DNA from: Methanolobus sp. WCC4
GTDB lineage: Archaea > Halobacteriota > Methanosarcinia > Methanosarcinales > Methanosarcinaceae
Reading direction: 5' to 3'
Length of the DNA: 64,000 nucleotides
NCBI RefSeq assembly: GCF_038022665.1
Contig: NZ_CP150629.1
Span: 2,152,480-2,216,479, forward strand
Made by a program: the position numbers and the translations under genes. The notes below the pieces were generated by a model. The model saw nothing but the letters and a program-made list of their open reading frames with translations. It had not been told where the DNA came from and did not search any database. Shown here in pieces: positions 5,001 to 31,134 of the stretch (the first letter of the stretch is position 1; every line of letters starts with the position of its first letter).

Positions 5001-8000
5001 TATTGTAGTTGATCGTGACATTATTGATGAGAACAGCATTTACAATTACGAAAGGCTGGAATCTATAAATGGAACTATCAAAACAATAATTACGATTAAT
5101 TCATCAAAGATATTCAACGGGAATTTTGAAGACTACATTGAATTCAATTTGGACTATCAGGTTAATTCTGACACAGGTACAGTGGCTCTTAATGACAAAA
5201 GTATAGTTGAAGCTGGAAGTACATTGGAATGGGATAATGGCTATAGCATTAGTTTAGTTTCAACAGGCATCAACAATAAAAAAGCTATGTTCTCTCTGGA
5301 CAAAGACGGAGAATTATATGATGAATTTATTCTGGATGTTGGAGACTACTACTACCTCAACAGAACAATAGATGGAACTGAACTGACGATTGTCAGGTTC
5401 CAGTTAGAGAACGTTTTTACTGGAGAGAACAACAATATTGTCACCATAAATAGAATTATAGAGAACCCTGATATTTCTGGTGATGATATAAGCATTACAA
5501 CTACTGAGAAAGACACCTTCAGGATCAGAAGTCAGAACTACAATGGACTTGATCTTACTGATATCATTGGCTACAATGACACAGACTCGATTAAAATTAA
5601 TTCATCAGGTTTTGCCGGTTTCTTTTACGATATAGATAAAGGTATTTCAACTGAAACGCTTACAATATTCGGTGGTTCTTATATTAATGGGACTTTGATC
5701 GAGACAAATGGAACTGTGTATGCCTCCAGAAGAATGCCAATTGAATATGAAAGCAGCAATATAGAAGGTTACTACGATTGTATTGGGCTTTTTGGAGAAA
5801 GATATGTTCCAATTAGTGAGAATACCCTCAATAAGACTGCAAAATTAGTTATTGATACTAACGAAAATATTGTATTAGAGACAAAGCAAAGTCTTTACCT
5901 TCCAAGTGGTTATGAGATCACTCCAAAAGGAATCGATGTTGAAGGAGAAAAAGTATGGATTGAATTATCTAAAAACGGAGAGTTCCTTGAAGATGAAGTT
6001 ATTAATGTATTAAATAATGAGATGTGGGTCTATGATAAAGATCTTGCTGGTGAAGATGATGTTATTGTCATGAAAATGAAAGTAACTGATATAATTCAGC
6101 AGAAGGATGGTAACGGAATAACCGTTATTGAGGGCTTGTGGCTGATTGACTTCGAAAATATTGTCGAAATAAATGTAGGCGATAACTTTGGTGAAATGCA
6201 GGTATCCAAAATTACAGCAGATCACCTCGAAATGACAAATCCAAATTCAATCGAGCTTGAACGAAATTCCATCGTTGAGCTTACAGACAAATATTCCTTT
6301 ATGGTAGCAGACAAAGATGAACTGGAATTCTGCCTTGTGGAAGAACCTGGGGATTCCAGCACATGCGAAGTTCGTGGAACTATTTCAGAAAATGCTGCCA
6401 TCTCTGAATGGACTCCTGTAAACTTCGAAGGGTTCTATCATGGGTTTAGTGATAATGGTGGAACAGAAACACTTGTGGCTAATATTTCTGATAGCGAGAT
6501 AGAGAATAGAAACCTGATATACCAGACCAGCCCTGCAAATGTGGATTTCAGGCATGATGAATGGGGTGAATATTCTGCCATTGGATTCCTTGGTGAAAAA
6601 TACCTTGCATCTTACACCGGGTCAACCGGGTTTGAGCTGAACGCTACAAACCTGCTTTCAACTAACAGGTTATCCAGAGTCCTTATTGATTCTAATGATG
6701 AATATGTCCTTTACAATAATTCTATGCTGATCCTCGAGAATGGATACGAACTTGAAGTCCTTTATATAGATACAAACAATAGCCTTCTTAACCTGTCCCT
6801 CATAAAGGATGGCTCAAAGGTCGATACTGCCGAGGTGTATGCAAATCATGATTACATCTACAGAACTGATATCCAATCTATCAATGACGTGCCTATCATA
6901 GCAGTTCACTTCAATAATATCTCTGCTGAGAATGGAAGTAACGATGCACATGTTGAAGGTTTATTCCAGATTTCAGACGAATGTACTTTCCTGTCTATTG
7001 GTGATACGTTCGGACAAATGACGCTAAGCAGCATTTCTACAGGTGGTATTACCTTGCTTAATGGAAATGATATGCTGTTATCAAAGGGTTCCAGTATCAA
7101 CGTAACAGAGAATCTTTATTTCAGTGTTGCAGATGATGACGAGGTCAGATTCTATCCATTTATGCATATCACCACTCCTACACTGGAATTTAGAACCCTG
7201 AGTCCGGGCAGGGATGAACTGACATCTGAATCAGATACCTGTTTAATCTTTGAAGTCACTACAAGCAAAGTATCTGATCTTACATGGATTGTAAATGACG
7301 TTGAGATCCAGACCAATGATTCATGCATGTGGGCCAGTTTCTCATACACACCTACCTCTACAGACCCATATACTGTAACAGTACAGGCAGAAAACTCAGA
7401 TGAGACTATAGTGCAAACCTGGAACATGAATGCAAATATTCCACTATCGAATACTATAGATGCAAGTTCATCAGGTAGTTCCTCCTCAGGAGGAGGTGGC
7501 GGTGGAGGCGGCAGTACAGGGGAAGCCTATGAAAATATCCTCAAAAAAGAAGTTGTCCGGGAAAATGTTAACAAGGACATGGAAACAACATACAACTTCA
7601 AGGAAGATGTCAACCCTGTTGAATCCATAAAGTTCATTGCACTTAAAAATGCAGGAACAATCTCTGCGACTATTGAAGTACTGAAAGGCAGATCCTCATT
7701 TGTAGACGTAGAACCTTCCGGTGAAGTCTACAAGAACATTAATGTCTGGATTGGAAAGACTGGATTTGCAACGCCTGCAAATATAAAGGATGTACAGGTT
7801 AAGTTCAAAGTAGAAAAGACCTGGATTGAAGAGAACAATATTCAGGGATCATCCATCTGTTTATGCAGATATAATGATAATATATGGAATGAGCTAACAA
7901 CACAGAAAGTAGATGAGGATGACAAATACTTCTATTTTGTCTCTGAAACTTCAGGATTCTCTGCTTTTGCTATAACAGGAAAAGCATTAGATACTGCAGG

Positions 8001-8169
8001 AAAGACCGATGTTAGCTACAGTCTGCAGGATAATACAGAAAATGATCCTGCTATAAGTGAATCTGAAAATTCAAGTTCAACAGAACAGAAGAGTACACCC
8101 GGATTGGGAATAACAGCTTCCATTACTGTGTATGCTTTGGTTGCTTTGGTACTAAGGAGAAGGAACTGA
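2002..8169 (+). CDS. Giant S-layer-type surface protein with PGF-CTERM-like anchor
   Basis: This is a 2055-residue exported surface protein. A signal peptide ends near ASANN at about residue 28. Copies of the Methanosarcina S-layer duplication domain (motifs GFYYDLD, DRMIEEG, GEKY, VADDDxLRF) occupy about residues 54-313, 324-580, 1168-1445 and 1455-1725. Between copies 2 and 3 lie two Ig-like segments (about 584-763) and four tandem repeats of about 100 residues (from about 765, 865, 968 and 1068) with the pattern W-x-L-x-x-GYS. A Ser/Gly linker at about 1820-1838 leads to a PGF-pre-PGF-like domain. The tail has TPGLG, a hydrophobic segment and RRR, like a PGF-CTERM archaeosortase signal with PGL in place of PGF. 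ATG 2002 has a weak AGGA site. TTG 2017, just after AGTGGTGG, is an alternative start. Confidence 0.85.
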   Translation: MSGGTLNLKNVLMLVLLLVASMGVASANNFSETTAKPSNFVWDENTASSNTYTWDARTFSGFYYDLDSGNYSESMTINMDNCCDRIIEEGDLEYSTIPINIDFKHGDWGSYQVIGFIGEKYFSGYTSDTKFPGDEASLIPDGIITKILIDDNRNVPFNSSSPILLENGYILNLVEVDTSGSRAFITLEKDGELLDTGIVAADDDYVYEINLRNNDVPIIVVHFNNITHGNETNPVFVNGIFQVSEDYLLLEEGDLYSEMELTYYSDNGIGMENDNQINLSKGNIIQLMGDICLKVADDDNLRFAPFVNKETGNTYYLRGTVAENDTFTWTPLNFAGFYYNMDSNIGSEKLEVISLDDRMIEEGNLEYTSTIQEVDFKANYSDLDPAEFPAKYPVMGLFGEMYVPLRSDTPNKLTELLIDKDEKHLLTVEEPVEIGGGYAVSLEATNNTVKMMLLYLFKDSERIDSEILSVGDNGATLVYKDDISTEDDIDILRVHFSNMSHNQTTIDGIWLRDEENCIDINIGDSFGKLTVSEIGANHLKMENTENVTLFQNSVIEITENYAFRVADDNDLRYYPYTEITPLNALTFNSFSPATINPESYNGNITTFNVELNQEADVTWVLDDVILYTNTSVTTASYINTSAKIGIHNLKVTAKNENGYAEKQWTWIVTEHPFEFINIEPAGDCSVIIGGTTDFNVNMPYNCTIEWYLDNNLVQTDNNVTSSNYTFDSLINNISSRSSHSIKAVASNGNETCQKEWHCSVYLITLRSGLTWELKDGYSLTLSSVDTTGDKALLNLSKNEELVDQRIVPAESYYCYNRSINGIEQNIIKVYVSDIFQGQIDSLVVIEELQQYSDAGTLDTNPVKLLGLGDIWTLGSGYSLSIVGVDEKEDYCIISLDKDGTIVDERIINSNTIYRYQRTNETTDNIETIIEIPIFNVFNSIPEEYVEFSSNYTLYSDEGTVDTDSFVLIRSGELWELNNGYAIGIEEISDKKALVTIEKNGIVVDRDIIDENSIYNYERLESINGTIKTIITINSSKIFNGNFEDYIEFNLDYQVNSDTGTVALNDKSIVEAGSTLEWDNGYSISLVSTGINNKKAMFSLDKDGELYDEFILDVGDYYYLNRTIDGTELTIVRFQLENVFTGENNNIVTINRIIENPDISGDDISITTTEKDTFRIRSQNYNGLDLTDIIGYNDTDSIKINSSGFAGFFYDIDKGISTETLTIFGGSYINGTLIETNGTVYASRRMPIEYESSNIEGYYDCIGLFGERYVPISENTLNKTAKLVIDTNENIVLETKQSLYLPSGYEITPKGIDVEGEKVWIELSKNGEFLEDEVINVLNNEMWVYDKDLAGEDDVIVMKMKVTDIIQQKDGNGITVIEGLWLIDFENIVEINVGDNFGEMQVSKITADHLEMTNPNSIELERNSIVELTDKYSFMVADKDELEFCLVEEPGDSSTCEVRGTISENAAISEWTPVNFEGFYHGFSDNGGTETLVANISDSEIENRNLIYQTSPANVDFRHDEWGEYSAIGFLGEKYLASYTGSTGFELNATNLLSTNRLSRVLIDSNDEYVLYNNSMLILENGYELEVLYIDTNNSLLNLSLIKDGSKVDTAEVYANHDYIYRTDIQSINDVPIIAVHFNNISAENGSNDAHVEGLFQISDECTFLSIGDTFGQMTLSSISTGGITLLNGNDMLLSKGSSINVTENLYFSVADDDEVRFYPFMHITTPTLEFRTLSPGRDELTSESDTCLIFEVTTSKVSDLTWIVNDVEIQTNDSCMWASFSYTPTSTDPYTVTVQAENSDETIVQTWNMNANIPLSNTIDASSSGSSSSGGGGGGGGSTGEAYENILKKEVVRENVNKDMETTYNFKEDVNPVESIKFIALKNAGTISATIEVLKGRSSFVDVEPSGEVYKNINVWIGKTGFATPANIKDVQVKFKVEKTWIEENNIQGSSICLCRYNDNIWNELTTQKVDEDDKYFYFVSETSGFSAFAITGKALDTAGKTDVSYSLQDNTENDPAISESENSSSTEQKSTPGLGITASITVYALVALVLRRRN

Positions 8170-16369: not shown

Positions 16370-16774
16370 ATGCTCCCTACAAGTATCAATAAAAACAATA
16401 AAGAATTGTTCAGCACAGAAGAGATATCCGAATTCCTGCATGATACAAGATACATTATCCTGCTATACATAGTAGGGGACTTCCTGACAACATTCCATGC
16501 TCTGAGCAATGGATACGGATTCGAGGAGAACAGGATGCTTGCAAGTATAATGGCTGAGCATGGGATCTGGTCACTACTTATAGTAAAGATGCTGATACTT
16601 CTTGTGATCTACTGGAACTATCACTCGATCAGAGCGTCCGTCCATTCATATGCCAGAAGACTGTGGGACCTGTCAAGACTCGGAGTAAGCCTATTAGGAC
16701 TTGTCCTTGTGATCAATAACCTGATGGTAATATCAATGAGATCAAGTCTTTTCGAGTACCTTGGCCTCTCCTGA
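16370..16774 (+). CDS. Small membrane protein, DUF5658-like
   Basis: This 134-residue protein has three or four predicted membrane segments. The first contains GDFLTTFHALSNGYGFEENRM, which fits the D-x-x-x-T ... E-x-N pattern of the DUF5658 family of small membrane proteins. Their function is not known. The gene converges on phoU1 and their 3' ends overlap by 33 bases. A protein with a similar D-x-x-x-T ... N-E-F-S-P arrangement overlaps the second phoU gene at 29784, which suggests a link with PhoU. The preceding 16157-16369 is very AT-rich and carries promoter-like sequence. Family assignment is moderate. Confidence 0.7.
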   Translation: MLPTSINKNNKELFSTEEISEFLHDTRYIILLYIVGDFLTTFHALSNGYGFEENRMLASIMAEHGIWSLLIVKMLILLVIYWNYHSIRASVHSYARRLWDLSRLGVSLLGLVLVINNLMVISMRSSLFEYLGLS

Positions 16775-17797
16775 AAGAGACTCTTTTATCTGGGTGGCCT
16801 TTATGTTGATGACCATTTCAGCTATATCCGCACTATATTCGGATATACGCTGAAAACTCTCAATTATCTTTCTTTGCCTTTCCCCGTAAAGACAATAGGT
16901 ATTCTCCGAACCTTCAGACTTCTGTATTATCTTGTTCCCAAGTGCAGATGACATCCGGGAGGTTCTGATTATATGGTTCGCAAGGTCAGTATCAATGTTG
17001 AGTACTGCCTTAAAAGAATCCTGGAACAGCCTGTGTGAAAGGACACCCATCTCTATGATATCATCGCTACCATTCTTTTGTCCATCCATCTGGACAACGG
17101 TCTGGGCTATTATATTAACATGGTCACCAATGCGTTCCATGAGCTTGATTATAAGGCGATATCCGAGGCAATCCTTTGAATTATTTATCCCCAACTTCTG
17201 GGCAAGTACCGAATCATCAAGAGCGGCCTTTATCTGCCTGACACTTAAAAGATAGAATTTGTCGACATCATTGTCCCTCTGGGCTATATCCGTTGCAAGT
17301 TCCACATCGTCTTCCCTTAAAGCAACAATGGTATCCTCCATCATAGAGGATATTATACGGAACATACTCTGCAGGGACTTTTCAAGTGAAATGTCCTGAT
17401 AGTTCAGGAGATTCTGGAGAACGATCTCGGTCCTGGATTCCTCAACGATCTCAATGCCAATGAGACGTTTGCGCGCAGACTCTTTCAGATACTTACGTTC
17501 AGCGGCTGTAAAACCACCTGGAGAAACTATCCTGATAATATCATATCCAACAAGATAATTGGCAACAAGTGTCCTGAAATTCTCTTCCTGGTCTTCGGAT
17601 GCTACCATCTCGACCTTTGAACGGGCATTCTTCTTCTGCTTTTCCTGATCAGGAGTTATTACAAGTGAGCGGTCAGGTTTCACTGTCAGAAGCACAGTAT
17701 CTCCTGCACTGAGATCACTTTCCCTTACCCAATCAATGGGCAGGGAAACGATATATGTTGAACCGCCTGTCAGCTGGATCTTTCTTTTATCTGAAAT
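16742..17797 (-). CDS. PhoU-type phosphate regulator with AbrB-like N-terminus, likely ATT start
   Basis: The protein has an N-terminal AbrB/SpoVT-like DNA-binding segment (KRKIQLTGGSTYIVSLPIDW) and two PhoU helical repeats with D-x-x-x-D/E metal motifs (LMERIGDHVNIIAQ, RISEYSADIAEMV). It resembles the gene at 30172, which begins MDTRKVQITGRSTYVLTLPK. Coding sequence runs without ATG, GTG or TTG through the whole N-terminal domain; the first standard start (GTG 17695) would delete it. Codon ATT at 17797-17795 aligns with the start of the paralogue and has GGAAGG six bases upstream, so I place the start there (351 residues). PhoU proteins restrain Pst phosphate uptake. The gene follows the pilin-like gene by 41 bases and is probably co-transcribed with it. 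Confidence 0.85.
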   Translation of the reverse strand: MSDKRKIQLTGGSTYIVSLPIDWVRESDLSAGDTVLLTVKPDRSLVITPDQEKQKKNARSKVEMVASEDQEENFRTLVANYLVGYDIIRIVSPGGFTAAERKYLKESARKRLIGIEIVEESRTEIVLQNLLNYQDISLEKSLQSMFRIISSMMEDTIVALREDDVELATDIAQRDNDVDKFYLLSVRQIKAALDDSVLAQKLGINNSKDCLGYRLIIKLMERIGDHVNIIAQTVVQMDGQKNGSDDIIEMGVLSHRLFQDSFKAVLNIDTDLANHIIRTSRMSSALGNKIIQKSEGSENTYCLYGERQRKIIESFQRISEYSADIAEMVINIKATQIKESLSGEAKVLEKT

Positions 17798-17838: not shown

Positions 17839-18990
17839 TTAAAGGATTGTCAGATTCCCTGAAACCTGACTGAGCCTTGATGTCATACCATCATCATCGG
17901 TAATCTCCAGATCGATAGTGATATTCCTGTCATTATACGGGTCAATACCAACCGGCCTGACAACCATACCCGAGAGATCATAATCATAGAGGGTTACATT
18001 TCCTGAATCCTTCCATACAGCCCATTTGTAACTTGTAATAAAGCCATCTGTATCAATAGAATCCGATGCATCCAGGATCAGATAACTATTAGGACTCTGG
18101 GTACCATTGGCACTTTGCAGGTATTCCACCTTGAACTGAACTTCAGCAACCGGCATAGGTGGGGTGAAAAGTTCCCTGAAGACATTGATATAAGATGTTA
18201 TTATCTCTACCTTGAGAGGTTCATCCTCTGAAGGAGCAGCTCCCGCATAGGAAGTGAAGTCGATCCCATAAGAGATATTGTAATCATCTGTGTTGGTGAG
18301 ACTTCCACCGGAACTATTACCATAAAAGGTGATCTGCCTGTTCTCATCGTCTATTGAGAAATTGCCTGATCCTATGCACTTTGTTCCATTTGAAGCGAAA
18401 GTGACATTGTGATCATATACAACCTCTCCAAAGGATTCCCAGGGATGTTTTTCAAGGGTATATGTGTAGTCAAGACTGTTGTTGGTCCATGAGGAAGAGG
18501 CGGGTATCACCTCTGAACCTGTTACAGTGATGTCCGAGAAATTAAGATGGATCGTCTTGCTCTTTGTAGCAGGAATGACAACCCTGTGATTCGCACTGTA
18601 GATTGCAGGATAATCCCTGTAGACATCAAAATTGCCATCGTTGTCGTATGCCTTGAAATGAAGGAAATATCCCCCATTGATATTGATTGCGGATATATAG
18701 GAATCATCTATATTGAGATTGAGAACTTTAAGGTCGATGGATTCCCAGCCTGATCCATCCCCTACCGGTTCGATGGAGATTATCCTGAGATCCTCATTCT
18801 CAACAGCAGTTTTATGGCTTTCAATTTCCATAGCCTGCTTTTCCGTAGTGGAAATAATGAAGGCTACACTTGTGGCAGCGATTATCGTAACAAGTATCAA
18901 CAACAGAGTTCCAAAAACAACAGTAACTCCGCGTTCATTATTCACAAATGATCCAATATCGTTACCAGCCATCTCTGGTGAAAAGATCAT
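17839..18990 (-). CDS. Archaeal type IV pilin-like protein with large extracellular domain
   Basis: The 383 residues open with a class III signal peptide: a short charged leader, then NNERG|VTVVFGTLLLILVTI, a pattern cut by the prepilin peptidase PibD after Gly21. The long hydrophobic helix that follows would form the filament core. The rest is a beta-rich, Ser/Thr/Asn-rich domain of about 330 residues with N-glycosylation sequons. This is large for a pilin, and the C-terminal part contains a PKD-like segment (LILDASDSIDTDGFITSYKW). It is a good candidate for a major or tip pilin of the adjacent TadA/TadC machine. ATG 18990 or the in-frame ATG 18972 may be the start; a TATA box immediately upstream fits a short leader. 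phoU1 follows. Confidence 0.82.
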   Translation of the reverse strand: MIFSPEMAGNDIGSFVNNERGVTVVFGTLLLILVTIIAATSVAFIISTTEKQAMEIESHKTAVENEDLRIISIEPVGDGSGWESIDLKVLNLNIDDSYISAININGGYFLHFKAYDNDGNFDVYRDYPAIYSANHRVVIPATKSKTIHLNFSDITVTGSEVIPASSSWTNNSLDYTYTLEKHPWESFGEVVYDHNVTFASNGTKCIGSGNFSIDDENRQITFYGNSSGGSLTNTDDYNISYGIDFTSYAGAAPSEDEPLKVEIITSYINVFRELFTPPMPVAEVQFKVEYLQSANGTQSPNSYLILDASDSIDTDGFITSYKWAVWKDSGNVTLYDYDLSGMVVRPVGIDPYNDRNITIDLEITDDDGMTSRLSQVSGNLTIL

Positions 18991-19076: not shown

Positions 19077-19772
19077 ATGATCACTTTTAGGGTTTTGATG
19101 GTGCTAACTAGCTTCGGTTTGAAAAACGTACCTTCCAATGTGGTACTGTTAATAGAAGAGGACATAGGAGATGTAAAGAGCGTCTTCTTCCGCAAGATCA
19201 GTCTTGATGCTCTGAAGCTTGGAAAGAAGGTACATTACATTTCTACAAGGAGTTCCAGGAATGACATAATGGAGGAACTTACCAGATCCGGCATACATGA
19301 CCATCTGGAGAATCTGGATGTCATTGGCAACTTCTCAGACCCCGTGTCCCTGCTTGATATGTGTTACAGAAGGCACAAACTCACCAGTCGCCTCTATGGA
19401 GAGGATGCCGGCCCGTTACACAACATAACCGATGCTGATGTCTGCATAATAGACATGTTCTCCTCTCTTTTCATCCATGAGGAGATAGAGGTGATATCAG
19501 AGACCATCGAAGCTCTGACAAAAATCAGCAGAGAAGAGAATATAACGTTCCTGCTTGCAGCAGATATCGGCATTCTTCCCGAAAGGGCAGAAAAGATAGT
19601 GCGCTCCATGGTCGATGGTGTCATACAGTTCAAGACCGAGTACGCCGGTGGCAAGATCAACCGTTTCATAAACATCCCTAAAATGAAAGGAAGTATCCCC
19701 CTGAACAAAATGATAGCATACAATGTCACAGGGCAGGGAATAACCATGGATACAAGGGAAAGGGTTGGTTAA
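19077..19772 (+). CDS. RecA/FlaH-like ATPase-fold protein with degenerate Walker A
   Basis: The 231-residue protein has the RecA-superfamily fold typical of FlaH/KaiC-like proteins. The opening strand and loop (VVLLIEEDIGDVKSVFF) align with the FlaH P-loop, but the Gly residues of GxxxxGKS are lost and only the K-S pair remains. A Walker B-like strand (DVCIIDMFSSLF) is kept. The C-terminal half resembles FlaH (VDGVIQFKTEYAGGKINRFI, then PKMKG). In archaella FlaH sits with the ATPase FlaI and the membrane protein FlaJ, so this may be the matching regulator or scaffold of the TadA/TadC machine. ATP binding is doubtful. The start is uncertain: ATG 19077 or ATG 19098. It converges on tadC2. Confidence 0.75.
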   Translation: MITFRVLMVLTSFGLKNVPSNVVLLIEEDIGDVKSVFFRKISLDALKLGKKVHYISTRSSRNDIMEELTRSGIHDHLENLDVIGNFSDPVSLLDMCYRRHKLTSRLYGEDAGPLHNITDADVCIIDMFSSLFIHEEIEVISETIEALTKISREENITFLLAADIGILPERAEKIVRSMVDGVIQFKTEYAGGKINRFINIPKMKGSIPLNKMIAYNVTGQGITMDTRERVG

Positions 19773-19821: not shown

Positions 19822-21195
19822 TTAACCATCCTCTCCACCTACTATAATTGTCGCTGTTCCTTTTGATTCACCTGCTGTTGCGGTGACTATATACGTACCT
19901 GCGTCAGAACCTGGTATAGGTGTAACTGAAACTGTACCATCATCCTCTGTCATTGAACTCGTTATTATGCCATCAGGTGATATGGTCATCTTGACAAAAG
20001 TACCGGGAACCGGATTTCCATCTGGATCGGTAACATTGAAGATGATAGGCTGTTGCAGCGGAATACCTCCAAATACTTCCTGACCATCACCGGAAACAAC
20101 TGATACTATGTAAGAGTCCCCTGCACCTGCAGGTAGCAGAAGTGTTACACAGGCAATATAGCTCAAAGCTATCAATACTGCCGAATGTTTGAAACCATGC
20201 TTGATCTCGCCTTCAGTGATAAGTCCGACAATGAGTCCACCGAACAGGGCATTCAGTATGATCATATGGAAGAAACCACGCTCGAAATCTATGTCAGAAA
20301 GACCTGCTCCTCCAAGCATTTCCATACCAACACCCTGAATGAGAGGTAAAAGGGATGTTGAGAGGATGTATGTCAGCATCACGATGATACCCTGCGCGAG
20401 ATAGAAGATAACAATGTACTGTTTCAGATCAGCTTCCTTTTCCCTCTGTATAGCTATCACTGACCTCATATCTTCCGAGGTACGAAACAGAAGGTCTGCA
20501 ACATTACCACCTGTATAAGCTGCCTGAACTACTACATCGATATATCTTGCCACAAGGCGGCTTTTCATGGAAGCCGACATCCTGTGCATGGATTCATCGA
20601 AGGATTTCCCCAGTACCATTGAAGAAGCTGCATCCTGAGCATGACTGCTTATGGCACCGAGATTGGTCTTTGAGAGATTGATGAAACCCTTCACCGGATC
20701 GATACCACCCCTCATCAGTTCTGATAACTTGTACAGGAACTCACTGAAAGCAATCTCTCTTTTCTGCAACTTTCTCTTTTCCAGGAAGGAATCTATCGAA
20801 TACGGAATGATAGCTACAAGGATGGCAAAGACCATTATGTGGTCCAGGTCATCTTTTGGTTTATCATCGTCAGGCTCCGGTTCAACCTCCTCCTCTTCAG
20901 CAGGCAGGGTCTCACCTCTTTCCGCTGCTTCGGCAGCTTCAAGTTCTGCTACCAGGGCTTCATAAGCTGCCTGCTTTGCTGCAGCTTCATCGCTTACAGC
21001 AGGACCTGCTTCTGATGCTTCATCCGTCACAAAGGAATGACCGGTGAGAACTGCCATCATCAATATCATGAATGCAATAATGACAGGGATACCCAGTGTC
21101 AGATATTCACGCTTGATATCATAACGTAGTGTCAATATCTGAACATATCTTGCTATTGTCAAATGGTGTTTTTCAATACTTCTTTCAATATTCAT
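19822..21195 (-). CDS. TadC/FlaJ-type pilus membrane protein with Ig-like C-terminal domain
   Basis: This is a platform protein of type IV pili (GspF/TadC family) of 457 residues. The first membrane segment (VIIAFMILMMAVLT) is followed by an acidic, Ala/Glu-rich insert of about 70 residues (EEEEVEPEPDDDKPKDD). The GspF domain carries typical motifs (LSELMRGGIDPVKGF, AAYTGGNVADLLFRTSEDM), and several membrane helices come next. After the last helix (about residue 345) is an invasin-like Ig domain (NVTDPDGNPVPGTFVKM, GTYIVTATAGESKG) that should face outside. Such a fusion is unusual for the family. The start overlaps the tadC1 stop by four bases (ATGA), so the two are translationally coupled. 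Confidence 0.85.
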   Translation of the reverse strand: MNIERSIEKHHLTIARYVQILTLRYDIKREYLTLGIPVIIAFMILMMAVLTGHSFVTDEASEAGPAVSDEAAAKQAAYEALVAELEAAEAAERGETLPAEEEEVEPEPDDDKPKDDLDHIMVFAILVAIIPYSIDSFLEKRKLQKREIAFSEFLYKLSELMRGGIDPVKGFINLSKTNLGAISSHAQDAASSMVLGKSFDESMHRMSASMKSRLVARYIDVVVQAAYTGGNVADLLFRTSEDMRSVIAIQREKEADLKQYIVIFYLAQGIIVMLTYILSTSLLPLIQGVGMEMLGGAGLSDIDFERGFFHMIILNALFGGLIVGLITEGEIKHGFKHSAVLIALSYIACVTLLLPAGAGDSYIVSVVSGDGQEVFGGIPLQQPIIFNVTDPDGNPVPGTFVKMTISPDGIITSSMTEDDGTVSVTPIPGSDAGTYIVTATAGESKGTATIIVGGEDG

Positions 21196-22109
21196 AGAGT
21201 ACTCCTTGAATATTTCATCCAGAGCAGGATCAGGAAAACGATATTGATGAAAGGCAACATGAAATAGACGAAGAACTGGAACATCTGTTTGGCTGTGAAA
21301 GGTCCGAGGTCGATACCCAGAGCACTTGTGACCACGATCATGAGGACCACAAGTACCACACTCATCACAACTCCGCTCAGATAACCTTCACCATATACAC
21401 CAAGGGAATCAACGAACTCCTTTTGCATCTTTCTCCTCATATCCATAAGTTCATTCGATTTCATCTCAAGATAGGTACGTAAGCCTCCACCGGATTGCAT
21501 GGCATTGGCAAGGTCTATACAAATATTCCTGAGGGATTCCGAAGACGTATTTCTTATAAGATGGTTCATGGCACTGACACCGTCCTCACCCAGAACATCC
21601 ACACGGTACATCACCTTGCCAAATTCAACTGAGACATCCCCGTAATCCTCTATGGCAACCTTCCTTATCACATCCATAGGGGACGAACCCGAACTTGCAA
21701 GGATCGTCATATAACCCAATGTGAAAGGGAGTTCCTGTTCGATATTCATGTTCTTGTTGGAGACCTTGTTATAGAGCATGAAAGGAAAGCCACTGACCGT
21801 CAGACCAAATGTCAGGAAGGTAAGGACTGATATATACACAAGCGGGGAAGAGGAATTACTGAAAAGAATGACTGATAGTATGAAGATGATCACTGATGCT
21901 AGTGCTGCAGTTACAAGCGCAAGGGAGATGAACATACCGGGGGTAAGTACCATATCCGCCTGATATAGTGATCTGGCAACATCTTCCTGTGGTTTCCTGT
22001 CTACCTGCTTACCGAAGACGTAGCAGAACATCTTGTATTTCTCTACGTATTTGTTGGTCTCACCATCATTGAAAGCCTGATGTACATCAACATCCCGGGT
22101 CCTGACCAT
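21192..22109 (-). CDS. TadC/FlaJ-type pilus membrane protein
   Basis: The 305-residue platform protein has a cytoplasmic N-terminal part, two membrane helices, a GspF-type helical domain (PFTLGYMTILASSGSSPMDV, NAMQSGGGLRTYLEM) and two further helices at the C-terminus. With tadC2 it forms a paired set, as is common in archaeal pilus loci with TadB/TadC-like partners. Its ATG shares a base with the tadA stop (TAATG), and its stop overlaps the tadC2 start, so the three are translated as a coupled unit. Confidence 0.88.
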   Translation of the reverse strand: MVRTRDVDVHQAFNDGETNKYVEKYKMFCYVFGKQVDRKPQEDVARSLYQADMVLTPGMFISLALVTAALASVIIFILSVILFSNSSSPLVYISVLTFLTFGLTVSGFPFMLYNKVSNKNMNIEQELPFTLGYMTILASSGSSPMDVIRKVAIEDYGDVSVEFGKVMYRVDVLGEDGVSAMNHLIRNTSSESLRNICIDLANAMQSGGGLRTYLEMKSNELMDMRRKMQKEFVDSLGVYGEGYLSGVVMSVVLVVLMIVVTSALGIDLGPFTAKQMFQFFVYFMLPFINIVFLILLWMKYSRSTL

Positions 22110-24154
22110 TAATGACTCATCTCCGCCATCTCATCCTTTTCTCTTGAATACCTCCTGATAGCTCTGGCAACTTCCTCATATTCAGTTATACCGTCATTAG
22201 CAAGGGATTCAAGGTACTTTCCACGCATTTCCATTTCCCTGACAAGCTCCATCTGGTCGATACCGAACTCATCATTGATGGCATCGAACATGGCACTGCT
22301 GCCACTGTATTCGTATTCATCCGTAACGGGATTCCATTTGAACACAGGATTCGTTATAAGGTCACCACGTTCAGGGTCCAGTTCCACAATCTCAACTATC
22401 CTGAGTGCACGCCTGAGGAAATGCTCACCGACCTTGATCATGGAATTGAAGATGACCATGTCCACACTGGCAAAGAGATTCCTCGGTACGTTCATCGGCT
22501 CGGATTCGACCCTGGAGAGAAGTTCATGGATAGAGCCTGCGTGTATGGTTCCCATACATGGGTGACCCACAGAGATAGCCTGGAACAGGGTACCTGCTTC
22601 AGCACCACGGACCTCACCAACCACTATGTATTCAGGTCTCTGCCTCAAAGCAGCTTTAAGGAGGTCGAAAAGCTCAATATCTCCTGCGGACTTGCCACCC
22701 TCACCACCACCAAAACCAGCCCTTGTGATAGATTGTGTCCAGTTAGGGTGCATGAGGTTCATTTCAGCAGTATCTTCGATAGATACTATCTTGTATTCAG
22801 GCGGGATGAAAGCACCAAGAGCATTCAATGTAGTTGTCTTACCGGATGCTGTACCTCCTGCTGCCAGAACCGATCGTTTGTACTCGATCATCAGCCAGAA
22901 ATAGGCAAGTACCGTGGAGTCATAGGTTTTGTAATTCATTAGGTCGATACAGGATACCGGATTGGACTTGAAACGCCTGATAGTAAAGGTAGAACCTCTT
23001 TTAGTTACCTCTTTTCCAAGTGTCAGGTTGGCACGGCTCCCATCCACAAGGGTTGCATCCCTGATCGGTTCAAGAACTGATATATGACGACCTGCTGCCT
23101 GTGCCATCCTCATGACAAAGTTGTTAAGCTCGATCTCCTCATAGATCACATCAGTAGCTACCGAACTGTAGACCCTGTGATTGATATATAGGGGTGTGTA
23201 CGGCCCATTACAGGTAATATCCTCAATGTATGGGTCTTTCATCAGGAGGTCCATCCTGTCAAAGCCCATGTATTTCTTATGTAGATAATAGAAGAATTTG
23301 TCCTTCTGCGTTTCACTGAGCTTCAGACGATAGATGTCCACTATAAGATCGAACCTGTCCCTCAGAGCTTCATCCCTGTCCTCTTCTTCTACAAGCAATA
23401 TCTCAGAGTGTGCCATCTTGTCAAAGGCATTCTGTATGATGTAAAGAGCTTCCTCCTCGCTTTCACTAAGTGGAGGTTCAAGGCATTTGTATTGAAGGGA
23501 TTCGCCATCGAACTCAATGTGAACATACTGACAACCGGGTGTAACCTCATAGGTGATATTGACCTCCTTTTGGGGTACTCCAGGTGCAGGGACTGATAGT
23601 TCACCGACTATGAACTCCATCTCTTCAATGGTTTCAGGTGCAGGGGTTATTATCTGCTCTATCTTCTTTAAAAGTAAAGAGACCTGTGAATTTTCGGCCG
23701 GGTCCGGATCCTGCTCATTCAAGGATTCGACTATATCCTCATATACAATCTCAGAGTCCTTTTTCTTACCAAGAATAAGACCAAACTTTCGCTTCTTTTT
23801 TGCAGACTCTTTCTCTGCAGCAGGAATTTGATCATTTTCATCGATAGACGTGTCACCGAAAAAGAGAGCATCCTTTTTTGATCCCCCTTCCTGCTCCCCC
23901 TCTTTTTCCAATACCAGAACGGAGGAAATTGCTTCGTGGATGGGCACTTCGTGCTCTGCCTGAGGGAGGAGGGACTCTTCCTCGCCAGTATGATTGTTAT
24001 CGGAGATGAGAATATCATCTGTTGTTTCTATCACATCTCCACCTATACGAAGGGTGGTATTTTCGATGGTATCAGGTTCTTCCTGAATATTTGTATCAAT
24101 TACATGAGATGGCTTTTTTCGGCTGAGCCTTGATCTTAAATAGAGTTTAACCAA
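22109..24154 (-). CDS. tadA: TadA/GspE-type secretion ATPase for type IV pilus
   Basis: This is the hexameric ATPase that powers pilus assembly. About 681 residues comprise a divergent, charged N-terminal extension of roughly 190 residues, then the type II/IV secretion ATPase core: Walker A GGTASGKT at about 433-440, IEDTAE, Walker B region YIVVGEVRG at about 509-517, and the His box GTIHAGS. I place the start at TTG 24154 because GGAGG lies seven bases before it. TTG 24172, further up, lacks a good site. The TTG overlaps the pstA stop by eight bases, which couples pilus and phosphate-transport genes. The N-terminal extension has no family I recognise. Confidence 0.92.
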   Translation of the reverse strand: MVKLYLRSRLSRKKPSHVIDTNIQEEPDTIENTTLRIGGDVIETTDDILISDNNHTGEEESLLPQAEHEVPIHEAISSVLVLEKEGEQEGGSKKDALFFGDTSIDENDQIPAAEKESAKKKRKFGLILGKKKDSEIVYEDIVESLNEQDPDPAENSQVSLLLKKIEQIITPAPETIEEMEFIVGELSVPAPGVPQKEVNITYEVTPGCQYVHIEFDGESLQYKCLEPPLSESEEEALYIIQNAFDKMAHSEILLVEEEDRDEALRDRFDLIVDIYRLKLSETQKDKFFYYLHKKYMGFDRMDLLMKDPYIEDITCNGPYTPLYINHRVYSSVATDVIYEEIELNNFVMRMAQAAGRHISVLEPIRDATLVDGSRANLTLGKEVTKRGSTFTIRRFKSNPVSCIDLMNYKTYDSTVLAYFWLMIEYKRSVLAAGGTASGKTTTLNALGAFIPPEYKIVSIEDTAEMNLMHPNWTQSITRAGFGGGEGGKSAGDIELFDLLKAALRQRPEYIVVGEVRGAEAGTLFQAISVGHPCMGTIHAGSIHELLSRVESEPMNVPRNLFASVDMVIFNSMIKVGEHFLRRALRIVEIVELDPERGDLITNPVFKWNPVTDEYEYSGSSAMFDAINDEFGIDQMELVREMEMRGKYLESLANDGITEYEEVARAIRRYSREKDEMAEMSH

Positions 24155-25100
24155 TTCTGTGCCTCCAAGCAATCAAACGTATTGTAGCATTGATAATCAG
24201 AACAATAGTTATTAGAACAAATGCTGCAGCAAATGCTTCTGAATCTGAAACTAAATGAGGGTAGTTATATGCATTATAAATTGTAAGTGGTAAGCTTGCC
24301 ACTAGATCCTGGAACGGATATATCTTCACACCATACAACAGCTTGTCACTTGCAGCAATCTTAAATTCAGGATAGAACTGTGTATAGCCTGCAGTAAAGA
24401 TCACAACGGCAGATTCTTCTGCAGCACGGCCTGTACCCAGTACTATACCTGTCAGAATTCCTGAAAGAGCAGAAGGTATTGTAATATTTTTTATTGTTTC
24501 CCATTTTGTGGCACCAAGTGCATAACTGGCAGCTTCAATATCAAATTTTACTGTATCTATCGCTTCTTCACTTGCGCGTTCAATCACCGGTAATATAAGT
24601 ATTGCAAGAGCAATGGAACCAGAGATTAGAGAAAAACCTCCAGTAATCGACCGCATATAGAATGCAAATACCAGAAAACCAAAAATACCTAGGACGATAG
24701 ATGGCGTACCTGAAAGTACATCAATAAGAAAACGGAATGTTCGTACTGCAAAACCATCCTTTGCATACCTTTTTAGATATATTGCCGTCCCTACAGCTAC
24801 AGGTGTTGCCAATATTGTAGAAAAAATAGACAGGAGTATAGTGCCTACCACAGCATTTCCAATTGCACCACCAAGTCCGGGTTGATTGGATTCAGAAGTA
24901 AGTATGAAATGCAAACTAAGGCTTGGAAGCGCCTTTATTCCAATCGTTCCCAAAATGAAAAACAATACCAATAATATGAGAATAGCAGACAAATACGACA
25001 AAGTAATAAATACTCTACCTGTGAGTTGTCTCAAATTAATTTTTGACACTAATGGTAGAAAATTGGTTTTAATATCTTTTGATTTTTCGGTATATGTCAT
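24147..25100 (-). CDS. pstA: Phosphate ABC transporter permease PstA
   Basis: The 317-residue inner-membrane permease belongs to the Pst high-affinity phosphate importer. It has six predicted helices and the MetI-type loop EAASYALGATKWETIKNITIPSA that docks the ATPase. A conserved segment (GTGRAAEESAVVIF) also matches PstA. The start overlaps the pstC stop by four bases and has GGGGGGAG just upstream. tadA follows directly, where pstB would normally stand. The gene and pstC look more AT-rich than the tad genes that follow. Confidence 0.93.
   Translation of the reverse strand: MTYTEKSKDIKTNFLPLVSKINLRQLTGRVFITLSYLSAILILLVLFFILGTIGIKALPSLSLHFILTSESNQPGLGGAIGNAVVGTILLSIFSTILATPVAVGTAIYLKRYAKDGFAVRTFRFLIDVLSGTPSIVLGIFGFLVFAFYMRSITGGFSLISGSIALAILILPVIERASEEAIDTVKFDIEAASYALGATKWETIKNITIPSALSGILTGIVLGTGRAAEESAVVIFTAGYTQFYPEFKIAASDKLLYGVKIYPFQDLVASLPLTIYNAYNYPHLVSDSEAFAAAFVLITIVLIINATIRLIAWRHRIG
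24161..24166 (-). promoter_or_regulatory. Ribosome binding site of tadA inside the end of pstA
   Basis: GGAGGC on the minus strand lies seven bases upstream of TTG 24154 and within the last codons of pstA. It decides the TTG start and indicates pstA-tadA co-translation. Confidence 0.65.
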
Positions 25101-26017
25101 TTTCTCCCCCCTATAGCCCTTGCTAATCCTACAAACAATATCTCTGTTGCAAAAAGTACTGCAGCAATAGCAAATATAGCACTTCTAGCTTCTGCATCAG
25201 CTATTTTAAAGCTAACATCTGACAGGATTTTGGTAGTCATTGCAGTGCCTGTTCCAAAAAATGTTGTTGGTATATTATTAGAACCTCCAAATAACATTAC
25301 AATAGCCATAGTTTCACCCATAGCCCTCATCATACCAAGTATCACAGCTGCCATTATACCCTTAGATGCTGTGGGTAGCAACACTTTACTAATAGTTTCC
25401 CAATGTGTAGCACCCAAAGCAAATGAAGCTTCTCTGTACGCATCTTCAACTGAACGTATTGAATCCTCAGACATTGATATGATAGTAGGGAGAATCATTA
25501 TGGCAAGTACTGTTGATGCAAGCGCTAAACTCACCCCTCGCACATTTATTTCTGTGCTAAAAAAGGGTATTAAACCCAACAGAGAAACTGTAAGTGGAGA
25601 GATATAATTAACGAATAATGGACCAAGAACAAAATACCCGAAAATCCCATATACTACAGAAGGAATCCCAACCAATAGTTCAATCAGGGGTTTCACTATC
25701 GAAACAAGCCTTGGAGAGGCAAATTCGGATAAAAATATTGCTGTGAAAACTCCTATAGGAACAGATAATGCAAGAGTTACCACCGTTAGAATCAGAGTTC
25801 CTAAAAAGTATATACGAATCCCATATATGTGCTCAGCATAATCCCATTTAGAACCTGTGATAAAATTGATTACACCTTGACTTTCAAATGTTGGATAGGC
25901 AATGTAGAAGATGAAACCTATGAAGAATAATGTAATAAAAACTGTAAGAGCAGTGCAAAATGCAAAGACAAATTTTGGAGTTAATGATTCTAACCTGGAT
26001 ATTGTCATATTATTCAT
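25097..26017 (-). CDS. pstC: Phosphate ABC transporter permease PstC
   Basis: This is the second membrane subunit of the Pst importer, about 306 residues from ATG 26017 (ATG 26008 is possible; an upstream extension to 26071 has no good site). It has a long first periplasmic loop with GSKWDY, the motif LVGIPSVVYGIFGYF, and the ATPase-docking loop EASFALGATHWETISKV followed by MRAMGETMAIVMLFGG. These are hallmark PstC sequences. The pstS gene lies 72 bases upstream. The partner ATPase PstB is not encoded in the window, so transport needs a subunit from elsewhere. Confidence 0.93.
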   Translation of the reverse strand: MNNMTISRLESLTPKFVFAFCTALTVFITLFFIGFIFYIAYPTFESQGVINFITGSKWDYAEHIYGIRIYFLGTLILTVVTLALSVPIGVFTAIFLSEFASPRLVSIVKPLIELLVGIPSVVYGIFGYFVLGPLFVNYISPLTVSLLGLIPFFSTEINVRGVSLALASTVLAIMILPTIISMSEDSIRSVEDAYREASFALGATHWETISKVLLPTASKGIMAAVILGMMRAMGETMAIVMLFGGSNNIPTTFFGTGTAMTTKILSDVSFKIADAEARSAIFAIAAVLFATEILFVGLARAIGGRK

Positions 26018-26089
26018 TTCTTCCGTTTTATCTAATGAAAAGAAAAAGAGTGGTGATTTGTGCATTGGCACAAATCATTGTTATTTAAT

Positions 26090-27067
26090 TTAGAGGTCGT
26101 ACAATGAATAATATCCGACTTCTGAGAAGATTCCCTTCTGAGCTGGCTGGGTAGCGAAATCAATAAATGACTGCTCAATTGAGGAAGGCTCACCAAGTGT
26201 AAGGTAGTTGAGAGGTCTGGTAAGCTTTGCAGGGAATGTGCTTGTCTCACCCTGAAGCTGGAGAAGAGCCTCATCATTGTTGTCATCGAAGTCTGTACCG
26301 GCACCTACATTAATAATTTCTACTGTTGTGTCCTCAACGAATCCAATGTCTACGAATCCAATTGCAGGAGCTGTTGTGGATCCAGCCTCTACAGCTGCGA
26401 GTACACCAGGATTTCCAGTTGCCTTTGTTGCATTTGTATTGTCTATGTAGTGTTTGTCACCAAGCCACTTAGCGAAACATTCTTCACTGCCACTGCCTGC
26501 CTCTTCTCTCTGATAGACCTGTACGTCAGCGGTAGCGGAGAGGTTGCTTGGTAAAGAACCAGATGCTACCATACCATCTGCATCTGCTGCCTGATACAAT
26601 GCAAGCATTTCAGCAGCTGTTATTGGACCATTACAGGTGACACCTTTGGAAATTGGAACTACTGCACTTGCACCAATTTGATGAACCTGCAGTGTTGGGT
26701 GCTCTGTTACTGTATCTACTGGCTCAGATGCTGAACCAATGTCTACAACGTCCATTTCAGCTGATGCAATACCTGCACCGGAACCGCCTGCCTGAACTGT
26801 TACTTTAACACCAGCATTTTCTCCCATGTAGGCATCTGCAAGAAGTTCAGAGACTGGCTGAACAGTTGTTGAACCTGCAATAAGGAGTTCTGCGGATGCG
26901 CCTGATGCGGCTTCTGCTGCACTTGCTTCGTCGGAAACGTCGCTTGAGAAAGAGCCCATGATCGTACCTACAGCTGCTGCACCAGCGATTGCTACCACTA
27001 CTAAGACGAGGGTTGCAACGATAGGTGAAACACCTGCTTCATCGTTGAAAAGTTTCTTAAAGTTCAT
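26090..27067 (-). CDS. pstS: PstS-like phosphate-binding protein with archaeal type IV pilin N-terminus
   Basis: The 325 residues combine two parts. Residues 1-12 (MNFKKLFNDEAG) and the following helix VSPIVATLVLVVVAIAGAAA match the archaeal Pilin_N pattern D-E-x-(A/G)|V-S-P, a class III signal cut by PibD rather than a secretory or lipoprotein signal. After a short Ala/Ser/Glu linker comes a PstS domain with GSTTV (65-69), AGGSGAGI (93-100) and IGSASEP (110-116), the phosphate-contact loops, and the later segment GSGSEECFAKWL. It could be an assembled pilin bearing a phosphate trap, or a binding protein held by an N-terminal helix near PstCA. Position ahead of pstCA-tadA-tadC favours linked function. 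I have not seen this fusion described; family searches are needed to be sure. Confidence 0.88.
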   Translation of the reverse strand: MNFKKLFNDEAGVSPIVATLVLVVVAIAGAAAVGTIMGSFSSDVSDEASAAEAASGASAELLIAGSTTVQPVSELLADAYMGENAGVKVTVQAGGSGAGIASAEMDVVDIGSASEPVDTVTEHPTLQVHQIGASAVVPISKGVTCNGPITAAEMLALYQAADADGMVASGSLPSNLSATADVQVYQREEAGSGSEECFAKWLGDKHYIDNTNATKATGNPGVLAAVEAGSTTAPAIGFVDIGFVEDTTVEIINVGAGTDFDDNNDEALLQLQGETSTFPAKLTRPLNYLTLGEPSSIEQSFIDFATQPAQKGIFSEVGYYSLYDL

Positions 27068-29783: not shown

Positions 29784-30218
29784 TCATTCCCTTTTCAGAA
29801 CCTCATATCCAAACACGGATATCGCAATTATGATAGACGTCATGGACAACATGAAGATCATATTGGAATACGCCTCCTTCAGAACGAACCAGGAAAGACC
29901 ACCTAACACATGAGTGACACTCATGAGCAGGATTATAAAAACACCTATGGGATATATATCCTCATTCTCCAGAAAGTGAAGGATAGTGTAACCCATCACA
30001 TAGTAGAACACGACAGTCAAAGCAAGATATGGAAGAACGATATCGTTCTCCACTGCAAAAACAAGTGTCGGGCTGAACTCATTTGCCAGTATATTCTCAA
30101 TACTGCCTGCAAAATAGAACGTCAGGGAATAGTCGATCACAACGGCAGCGCAGAGAAAAAGAGGGATTAACCTATAATTGTGATAGATCGATCGCAGACT
30201 CTGCAATATTCGATGCAT
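29784..30218 (-). CDS. Membrane protein overlapping phoU2, DUF5658-like
   Basis: The 144 residues have about four membrane helices. The first holds VVIDYSLTFYFAGSIEN, and a loop has NEFSP, resembling the D-x-x-x-T ... E-x-N-P arrangement of DUF5658. Its ATG 30218 lies inside the end of phoU2 (47-base overlap, same strand) with AAGGAT just before it, so the two should be co-expressed. A protein of the same general type sits beside phoU1. The function is unknown; a membrane partner of PhoU is an inference from the repeated pairing. Confidence 0.7.
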   Translation of the reverse strand: MHRILQSLRSIYHNYRLIPLFLCAAVVIDYSLTFYFAGSIENILANEFSPTLVFAVENDIVLPYLALTVVFYYVMGYTILHFLENEDIYPIGVFIILLMSVTHVLGGLSWFVLKEAYSNMIFMLSMTSIIIAISVFGYEVLKRE

Positions 30219-31134
30219 AATCCTTTATCCTGCTGAAACTGTCAATTATCAGTTCAATGGAATCCTCGGCCGGAACCTGACTTGCATTGATAAGCTTCTC
30301 AGTGAAGAGCTGATCCCTTCCAAGTACATTATTTGCCATCCCGCTGTCAGACTCCCTTAAAGCCTCGCTGCTGTCCATAAAGATGGACTGGCAATCCCTG
30401 CAAAGATCTGCAAGTATTGAACGTACATCCTGTGGAAGCGATATATAAGAAAAATGTAATGATATCTTGGAGATGTGATCACCTATTCGTTCAACATCAT
30501 TTGCAGCCATCCGGTAGTAGAAGGATTCAACAAGGCTCAGTTTATCTTCCTTTGACTGTTTCTTCAGGTTCAGGCGGTCAACATGCTGTTTTGAGACAAG
30601 CAGGAACATCCTGTCAAGGTCATCATCGCGGGTGATGATGTGTTTGCACATGTCCTTATCATCCTCTTCAAAGGCCATTGCAAGTTCATCCAGCATGAGA
30701 TACACAAGGGATGACATCCTTTTCAGACCTTTCTCGATCGTGAGATCGTCTGTATCAAGGAAGTTCTTTATCATTATCTTCTTTTCACTACTTTCAACGA
30801 TCTCAAACCCTACAAGACGATGGCACAGGTCCTTTATCTCCCGCTTCTCTTCAGAGGATATATTGTCACCACTTATCTCTATTGCCTGATGGTCACCTAC
30901 AATATACAGGCCGACTATGTCCCTTTTCAGATGTTCCAGTTCTTTTTTGAACTTCAGCTTCTTTGGATGCTTAGATGACCTGATACCCGGAGGCTTCAGA
31001 AGTAACGACCCGTCCTCCTGATAGAATATGGATATATGGGAACCCGCCTCCAGTTCTGAGCGAACGGCCCATTTCTTTGGAAGGGTCAATACATAAGTGG
31101 ATCTGCCCGTTATCTGTACTTTTCTTGTATCCAT
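30172..31134 (-). CDS. PhoU-type phosphate regulator with AbrB-like N-terminus
   Basis: The 320 residues start MDTRKVQITGRSTYVLTLPK, an AbrB/SpoVT-like swapped-hairpin segment that binds DNA in related proteins. Two PhoU three-helix repeats follow, with metal-binding motifs (MAANDVERIGDHISKIS; RIKDYASNIAES). Fusion of these domains is common in methanogens and suggests direct transcriptional control as well as contact with the transporter. It is a paralogue of the gene at 16742; together they flank the pst/pilus block. The gene has its own upstream region (31198-31237) with an inverted repeat and the 12-mer shared with pstS. The downstream membrane gene overlaps it. Confidence 0.9.
   Translation of the reverse strand: MDTRKVQITGRSTYVLTLPKKWAVRSELEAGSHISIFYQEDGSLLLKPPGIRSSKHPKKLKFKKELEHLKRDIVGLYIVGDHQAIEISGDNISSEEKREIKDLCHRLVGFEIVESSEKKIMIKNFLDTDDLTIEKGLKRMSSLVYLMLDELAMAFEEDDKDMCKHIITRDDDLDRMFLLVSKQHVDRLNLKKQSKEDKLSLVESFYYRMAANDVERIGDHISKISLHFSYISLPQDVRSILADLCRDCQSIFMDSSEALRESDSGMANNVLGRDQLFTEKLINASQVPAEDSIELIIDSFSRIKDYASNIAESAIDLSQL

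Follow-up and report, generated by a model that had tools for sequence, protein, structure and literature searches.

The window, a 64,000-nucleotide stretch of DNA from Methanolobus sp. WCC4, contains a gene whose product begins like an archaeal type IV pilin and continues as a phosphate-binding protein: a pilin signal and core helix (KKLFNDEAG/VSPIVATLVLVVVAIAGAAAVG, the slash marking the predicted cleavage site) stand in front of a predicted PstS domain. It opens an operon with the order pstS(pilin)-pstC-pstA-ArlI-type ATPase-TadC1-TadC2, in which the genes follow one another nearly without gaps (Table 1). When residues 1–62 alone were compared with the PDB (up to E = 1), five matches were obtained, every one an archaeal type IV filament subunit (8fj5, E = 1.4e-4; 8rey, 3e-3; 8fk7; 3j1r; 5kyh), and the best PDB relatives of the full protein were phosphate-binding proteins (E = 4e-9 and weaker). 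Residues 51–247 matched the Pfam family PBP_like_2 above its curated cut-off (E = 4e-15), and residues 20–320 matched the NCBIfam PstS family TIGR02136 (E = 7e-24), although at 84.5 bits against a cut-off of 206.6; a second PstS model, TIGR00975, gave 39 bits against 205. We call the protein a PstS on its binding-protein family match, its junction with PstC and PstA and its phosphate-contact residues, with scores that lie below both NCBIfam PstS cut-offs. Likewise, its pilin character follows from the class III signal and a hydrophobic helix like that of solved pilins, the Pfam Pilin_N match (residues 12–53, E = 0.007) being sub-threshold at 17.6 bits versus 25.2. The PDB, Pfam and NCBIfam matches thus bear out the earlier note, which had proposed from the letters alone a class III signal and pilin helix fronting a PstS domain. 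Its remark that a secretory or lipoprotein signal is what known PstS proteins carry agrees with the second PstS of this genome, an ordinary lipoprotein encoded in a pstSCAB-phoU operon, but overlooked that sugar-binding proteins with pilin signals were already known (PMC4187195).

At the predicted cleavage site, the residue at −2 is Ala in Methanolobus sp. WCC4 (E-A-G/V), so that the strict charged residue is absent, while several orthologues carry the textbook charged residue at this position (R-A/V, K-A/V, E-A/V, E-G/I). Motif and helix are nearly invariant across 28 homologues, and hence the pilin-PstS is no accident of a single genome. An AlphaFold2 prediction computed with four aligned homologues gave a poor model (pLDDT 51, pTM 0.42).

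Table 1 Features of the pilin-PstS locus (positions in the window)
Feature	Position	Strand	Evidence and remarks
pstS with type IV pilin signal	26090..27067	-	325 aa, ATG start
Class III signal peptide, residues 1–12 (MNFKKLFNDEAG)	27032..27067	-	Sequence; alignments to 8fj5/8rey/3j1r; predicted cleavage before V13
Pilin core helix, residues 13–40	26948..27031	-	98.4% identical within genus vs 50% for residues 61–325
PstS-type phosphate-binding domain (predicted), residues 59–325	26093..26893	-	Contact residues D109, R187, S192, G193 and S96 kept
10-bp hairpin, then T-rich stretch	26054..26077	-	Between pstS stop and pstC, directly after the stop
pstC permease	25097..26071	-	Above TIGR02138 cut-off (282 bits); true start probably 26017 or 26008, past the hairpin
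pstA permease	24147..25100	-	TIGR00974 253 bits, above cut-off; 4-base overlap with pstC
Type IV filament assembly ATPase (ArlI/FlaI-like)	22109..24172	-	T2SSE E 1e-31
TadC1 platform protein	21192..22109	-	T2SSF E 7e-12
TadC2, second platform protein, C-terminal Ig-like domain	19822..21195	-	T2SSF E 1e-14, Big_1 E 1e-7
KaiC-like RecA-family protein	19077..19772	+	KaiC E 2e-9; convergent with operon; conserved in locus
383-aa protein, second class III-like start (VNNERG/VTVVFGTLLLILVTIIAA)	17839..18990	-	Pilin_N E 0.002, 19.5 bits, below cut-off; conserved in locus
PhoU-domain protein	16742..17695	-	PhoU E 1e-19; conserved, far end of locus
688-aa secreted protein, C-terminal membrane helix	27397..29463	-	Directly upstream in most copies
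144-aa multi-spanning membrane protein	29784..30218	-	Conserved in locus
MazE-PhoU protein	30172..31134	-	PhoU E 7e-20; conserved in locus

The earlier note was right that this gene heads an operon with a pilus ATPase and two platform proteins, all of which are present, but it overlooked the two permease genes that lie in between. Start codons at the locus are uncertain for pstC and the ATPase only. The assembly machine is recognized by family matches above cut-off for both the ATPase (T2SSE) and the platform proteins (T2SSF). Among more specific models, the ATPase scored 421 bits with NF058587 and 191 bits with the BasE model NF053672, both below cut-off; it is nearest to ArlI/FlaI, the ArlI model outscoring that of BasE. 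Ig-like domains of the Big_1/invasin type, such as the one at the C-terminus of TadC2, are unexpected in the platform protein family. Near the locus only two class III-like starts were seen, in the 325- and 383-aa proteins, and no small pilin gene was found; the 383-aa protein is a candidate minor subunit. The operon was also found to hold no pstB. One PstB above cut-off is encoded in the genome, in the ordinary pst operon elsewhere, and the archaeal prepilin peptidase PibD is likewise encoded elsewhere.

The hairpin that follows the pstS stop codon recurs at the same place in the orthologous operons, where a stem of at least 9 pairs followed by a T-run was found in 23 of 29, compared with 8% of shuffled copies; in two operons (L049 and L060) it is also visible by eye. 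Stem sequences vary (28 distinct), indicating that the structure is what is kept, and there was no match in Rfam. In the genome's ordinary pst operon, only 24 bases separate pstS from pstC, too few for such a hairpin with its T-run. The hairpin plausibly leads to an excess of the pstS transcript over those of the permease and assembly genes, which would fit a structural subunit and, equally, any binding protein.

The E. coli phosphate contacts, which we take to be T10, S38, D56, R135, S139 and G140, align with T67, S96, D109, R187, S192 and G193 of the pilin-PstS. Across 40 homologues these residues are kept in 40 (D109), 40 (G193), 38 (S192), 37 (R187), 35 (S96) and 31 (T67), so that, judging from the alignment, phosphate binding by the pilin-PstS is likely. 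Conservation of the helix is far stronger than that of the domain: among 17 species of the genus, residues 13–40 are 98.4% identical, against 49.8% for residues 61–325. Recent gene conversion was considered as the origin of the invariant helix and rejected, as identity at four-fold third positions in the same comparison is 64% in the helix and 54% in the domain. Because these silent sites have drifted, the helix appears to be kept by selection at the protein level and not by recent copying, with slight homogenization possible near the start codon (residues 1–12, 80%). An ordinary anchor should have no need for such identity, whereas packing into a filament core or recognition by an assembly machine would.

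The distribution of the gene was surveyed in 112 genomes of the family, using TadC1 orthologues at E < 1e-55 as the marker of the machine. TadC1 was present in 25 genomes, once in each except for a second, weaker match in one (G109), and a pilin-PstS was found in 23 of these; all 25 fit one locus, as in the remaining two the contig breaks off within the ATPase gene (L074) or within pstC (L075), leaving pstS out of view. Of the 23, 20 have the genes from pstS through TadC2 in one unbroken run, and the contig ends after the ATPase in one and after pstA in two. No close homologue with an intact motif was seen in those of the 112 genomes that lack TadC1, and two genomes (G005 and G080) have homologues in which the motif is lost. 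Further families of the phylum carry the same block with the motif (L118, L122, L123, L124 and L125, and partly L126 and L127). A divergent version (L129, L130 and L131) places pilin-type PstS-like proteins beside ATPase, TadC and PhoU genes with a prepilin peptidase in the neighborhood, whose family was tested for L129 only (PibD). Altogether, 54 homologues divide into 37 that combine the motif with type IV genes on a single piece of sequence, 11 with the motif and no such genes in view, and 6 without the motif, a linkage on which we put no probability because the homologues are related by descent. Most of the 11 lie at contig ends, and the others are a second paralogue in operon-holding genomes or lie on broken pieces of fragmented genomes. 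No type IV genes were found near the six motif-less homologues.

Comparison of gene histories divides the operon into two sets. Within the genus, the pairwise identities of PstS, PstC and PstA correlate with one another (r = 0.74–0.89), as do those of the ATPase, TadC1 and TadC2 (0.79–0.89), and correlation between the two sets is nearly nil (−0.19 to 0.19). In the tree of the machine the genera separate, whereas in that of PstC and PstA a sequence from another genus (G068) stands beside that of Methanolobus sp. WCC4. Topology tests rejected genus monophyly for the permease cassette (p-AU = 3e-44) and the cassette grouping for the machine (p-AU = 2e-52), values that are indicative only, since the groupings were picked after viewing the trees, which were themselves computed by a quick method. 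From these patterns, species seem to have traded the PstC/PstA cassette, with the machine passing down vertically, and the near-invariant helix may represent the common plug.

Taken together, these observations suggest that a pilin-PstS encoded with its own transporter and assembly motor forms a phosphate-collecting surface structure resembling the bindosome of Sulfolobus. The locus is real and strongly conserved, and in our view it probably specifies a type IV assembly system dedicated to a phosphate-binding protein. This reading draws on the match of the helix to archaeal filament structures, the co-occurrence in 23 of 25 genomes, the block in other families and the contrast of 37 linked motif-bearing with 6 unlinked motif-less homologues, together with the selection on the helix, the kept binding residues, the absence of a small pilin gene, the PibD and single PstB of the genome and the flanking PhoU genes. 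In such a system, PibD would cleave PstS before V13, and the operon's own ArlI-type ATPase, together with its pair of TadC proteins, would take up the exposed hydrophobic helix. Many copies of PstS could thereby be built into an oligomer or filament within or on the cell envelope, the hairpin keeping its transcripts in excess, and bound phosphate would be handed to PstC-PstA, presumably working with the single PstB of the ordinary pst operon. The reading is limited by the sub-threshold Pilin_N score, the missing charge at −2 in this species and the assumed sharing of PstB. In addition, another pilin of the genome, which encodes four Pilin_N proteins above cut-off elsewhere, could be the true major subunit, leaving PstS a minor or accessory role.

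Co-inheritance of neighbors is by itself no proof of a shared structure, and the shape that the bindosome might take is the less certain part. In a more specific form, which we regard as doubtful, PstS would be the major subunit of a long extracellular pilus that is coated with phosphate-binding domains, concentrates phosphate away from the cell and possibly returns it by retraction or by hopping along the filament. The conserved locus has no small pilin gene, the pilin helix is under strong selection, archaeal pili can retract (PMC11178785) and a filament subunit of comparable length, the 303-aa archaeal protein Iho670, has a solved structure (5kyh); the hairpin with its T-run also hints at surplus production of pstS. 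However, a short assembly embedded in the envelope accounts for the same data, binding proteins commonly outnumber permeases anyway and the sole studied precedent, the Sulfolobus sugar-binding proteins, has no appendage (PMC4187195). Distant capture also lacks an obvious return route, because phosphate must reach PstC-PstA in the membrane. The whole scheme, a genuine extracellular pilus for phosphate capture with PstS as its major subunit, permease and motor in one operon and a PstS-PstC-PstA module swapped on an inherited machine, strikes us as rather unlikely. Of the earlier suggestion that PstS is built into a phosphate-catching filament, the coupling to a dedicated machine is strongly backed by the operon, the co-occurrence and the helix conservation, and a filament working at a distance is only possible.

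If the helix merely anchored the protein as a plain membrane stalk, the alternative offered at the outset, the adjoining pilus genes would have to serve pilins encoded elsewhere. Helix and linker would suffice as an anchor, archaea commonly have stand-alone pilins (PMC4858521), and besides the four Pilin_N proteins above cut-off encoded elsewhere there are six T2SSE-type ATPases in the genome. Yet an anchor would tolerate hydrophobic swaps, and the helix has stayed nearly identical despite changed silent sites. Moreover, plain-anchor homologues have neither the motif nor a linked machine, family genomes without a pilin-PstS also lack the machine and a lipoprotein-anchored PstS is already encoded elsewhere in the genome, for which reasons a stalk is disfavored and, to us, quite unlikely. 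A sensory or adhesive role, in which the PstS-bearing structure would signal phosphate to the PhoU proteins encoded alongside or attach to surfaces rich in phosphate, with uptake of secondary importance, would explain why PhoU genes flank most copies, why motif-less relatives lie beside a histidine kinase and why a second motif-bearing paralogue without its own permease sits beside a PhoU gene. Nevertheless, the operon-type PstS consistently comes with a pstC and a pstA of its own, and all three vary together, which points to transport and renders this role improbable. As for a chance neighborhood or an annotation artefact, nothing was found in its favor, and the same gene order in 20 family genomes and several other families of the phylum makes it scarcely credible.

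The closest known relative of the proposed phosphate bindosome is the sugar bindosome of Sulfolobus, composed of the pilins BasABC, the ATPase BasE and the platform protein BasF (PMC4187195, PMC4371748), for which no appendage has ever been observed and which has been suspected to be widespread in archaea, as euryarchaea likewise have binding proteins that carry signals of this kind (PMC4187195). The systems share ABC-transporter binding proteins with class III pilin signals, which in Sulfolobus are processed by PibD and need a type IV ATPase and platform, as they may here. Unlike in Sulfolobus, the predicted ligand is phosphate instead of sugars, the hosts are methanogens and their relatives on the euryarchaeal side, the binding protein, permeases and assembly genes share one operon with two TadC genes, and permease cassettes appear to be exchanged on a vertically inherited machine. 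The ATPase is closer to ArlI than to BasE, and small Bas pilins were not found in the locus. With 191 bits against a cut-off of 1000 for BasE and 31 against 1300 for BasF, the Bas models fail, and so, in the absence of small pilins from the locus, we class the phosphate system not as a Bas bindosome but only as one that may work like it. Compared with the PstSCAB-PhoU transporter, it has a PstS domain (below the strict cut-off), PstC and PstA above their family cut-offs and PhoU nearby, but a pilin signal replaces the lipoprotein or secretory signal, pstB is missing and type IV ATPase and platform genes follow pstA. The Iho670 adhesion filament of Ignicoccus (5kyh) is similar in its subunit of ~300 aa and its VSPVIATLLLI core helix, in a filament whose structure is solved. 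Its head domain is, to our knowledge, not a solute-binding protein. Euryarchaeal type IV pili (PMC4858521) likewise combine a VirB11-type ATPase, two TadC genes, a KaiC-like neighbor and class III pilin signals, but the predicted main subunit here is a solute-binding protein; in the main text of that 2016 census of archaeal pili (Makarova et al.), the words phosphate, PhoU and solute-binding are absent.

We found no earlier description of a pilin-PstS operon in the literature within reach, which excluded most subscription papers. The original bindosome paper reportedly dates from 2011, and PstS appendages are said to have been described in Pseudomonas in 2008. Pilus-like assembly of binding proteins has so far been studied only for sugars in Sulfolobus. 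If the proposed system holds, the coupling of nutrient uptake to type IV machines would be general in archaea, and its compact, dedicated phosphate version in methanogens would provide a single operon for testing that coupling, with a bearing on phosphorus acquisition by methane-producing archaea.

Several minor observations accompany these results. The motif-less PstS relatives (L036, L037, L038, L133, L134 and L135) include three (L036–L038) that adjoin a sensor histidine kinase gene, possibly as a phosphate-sensing pair. The second pilin-type PstS paralogue, of 362–391 aa and without its own permease, lies beside a third PhoU-type gene (L039, L040, L041, L047 and L053). In two of the more distant copies, PstA carries a C-terminal extension of ~600 residues (L126:11283-14015 and L127:11193-14039); a fusion of PstA with the ATPase was considered for both and rejected, the long extension not being an ATPase. 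Finally, positions 2002-8169 of the window encode a 2055-aa secreted repeat protein with a membrane anchor at its C-terminus.
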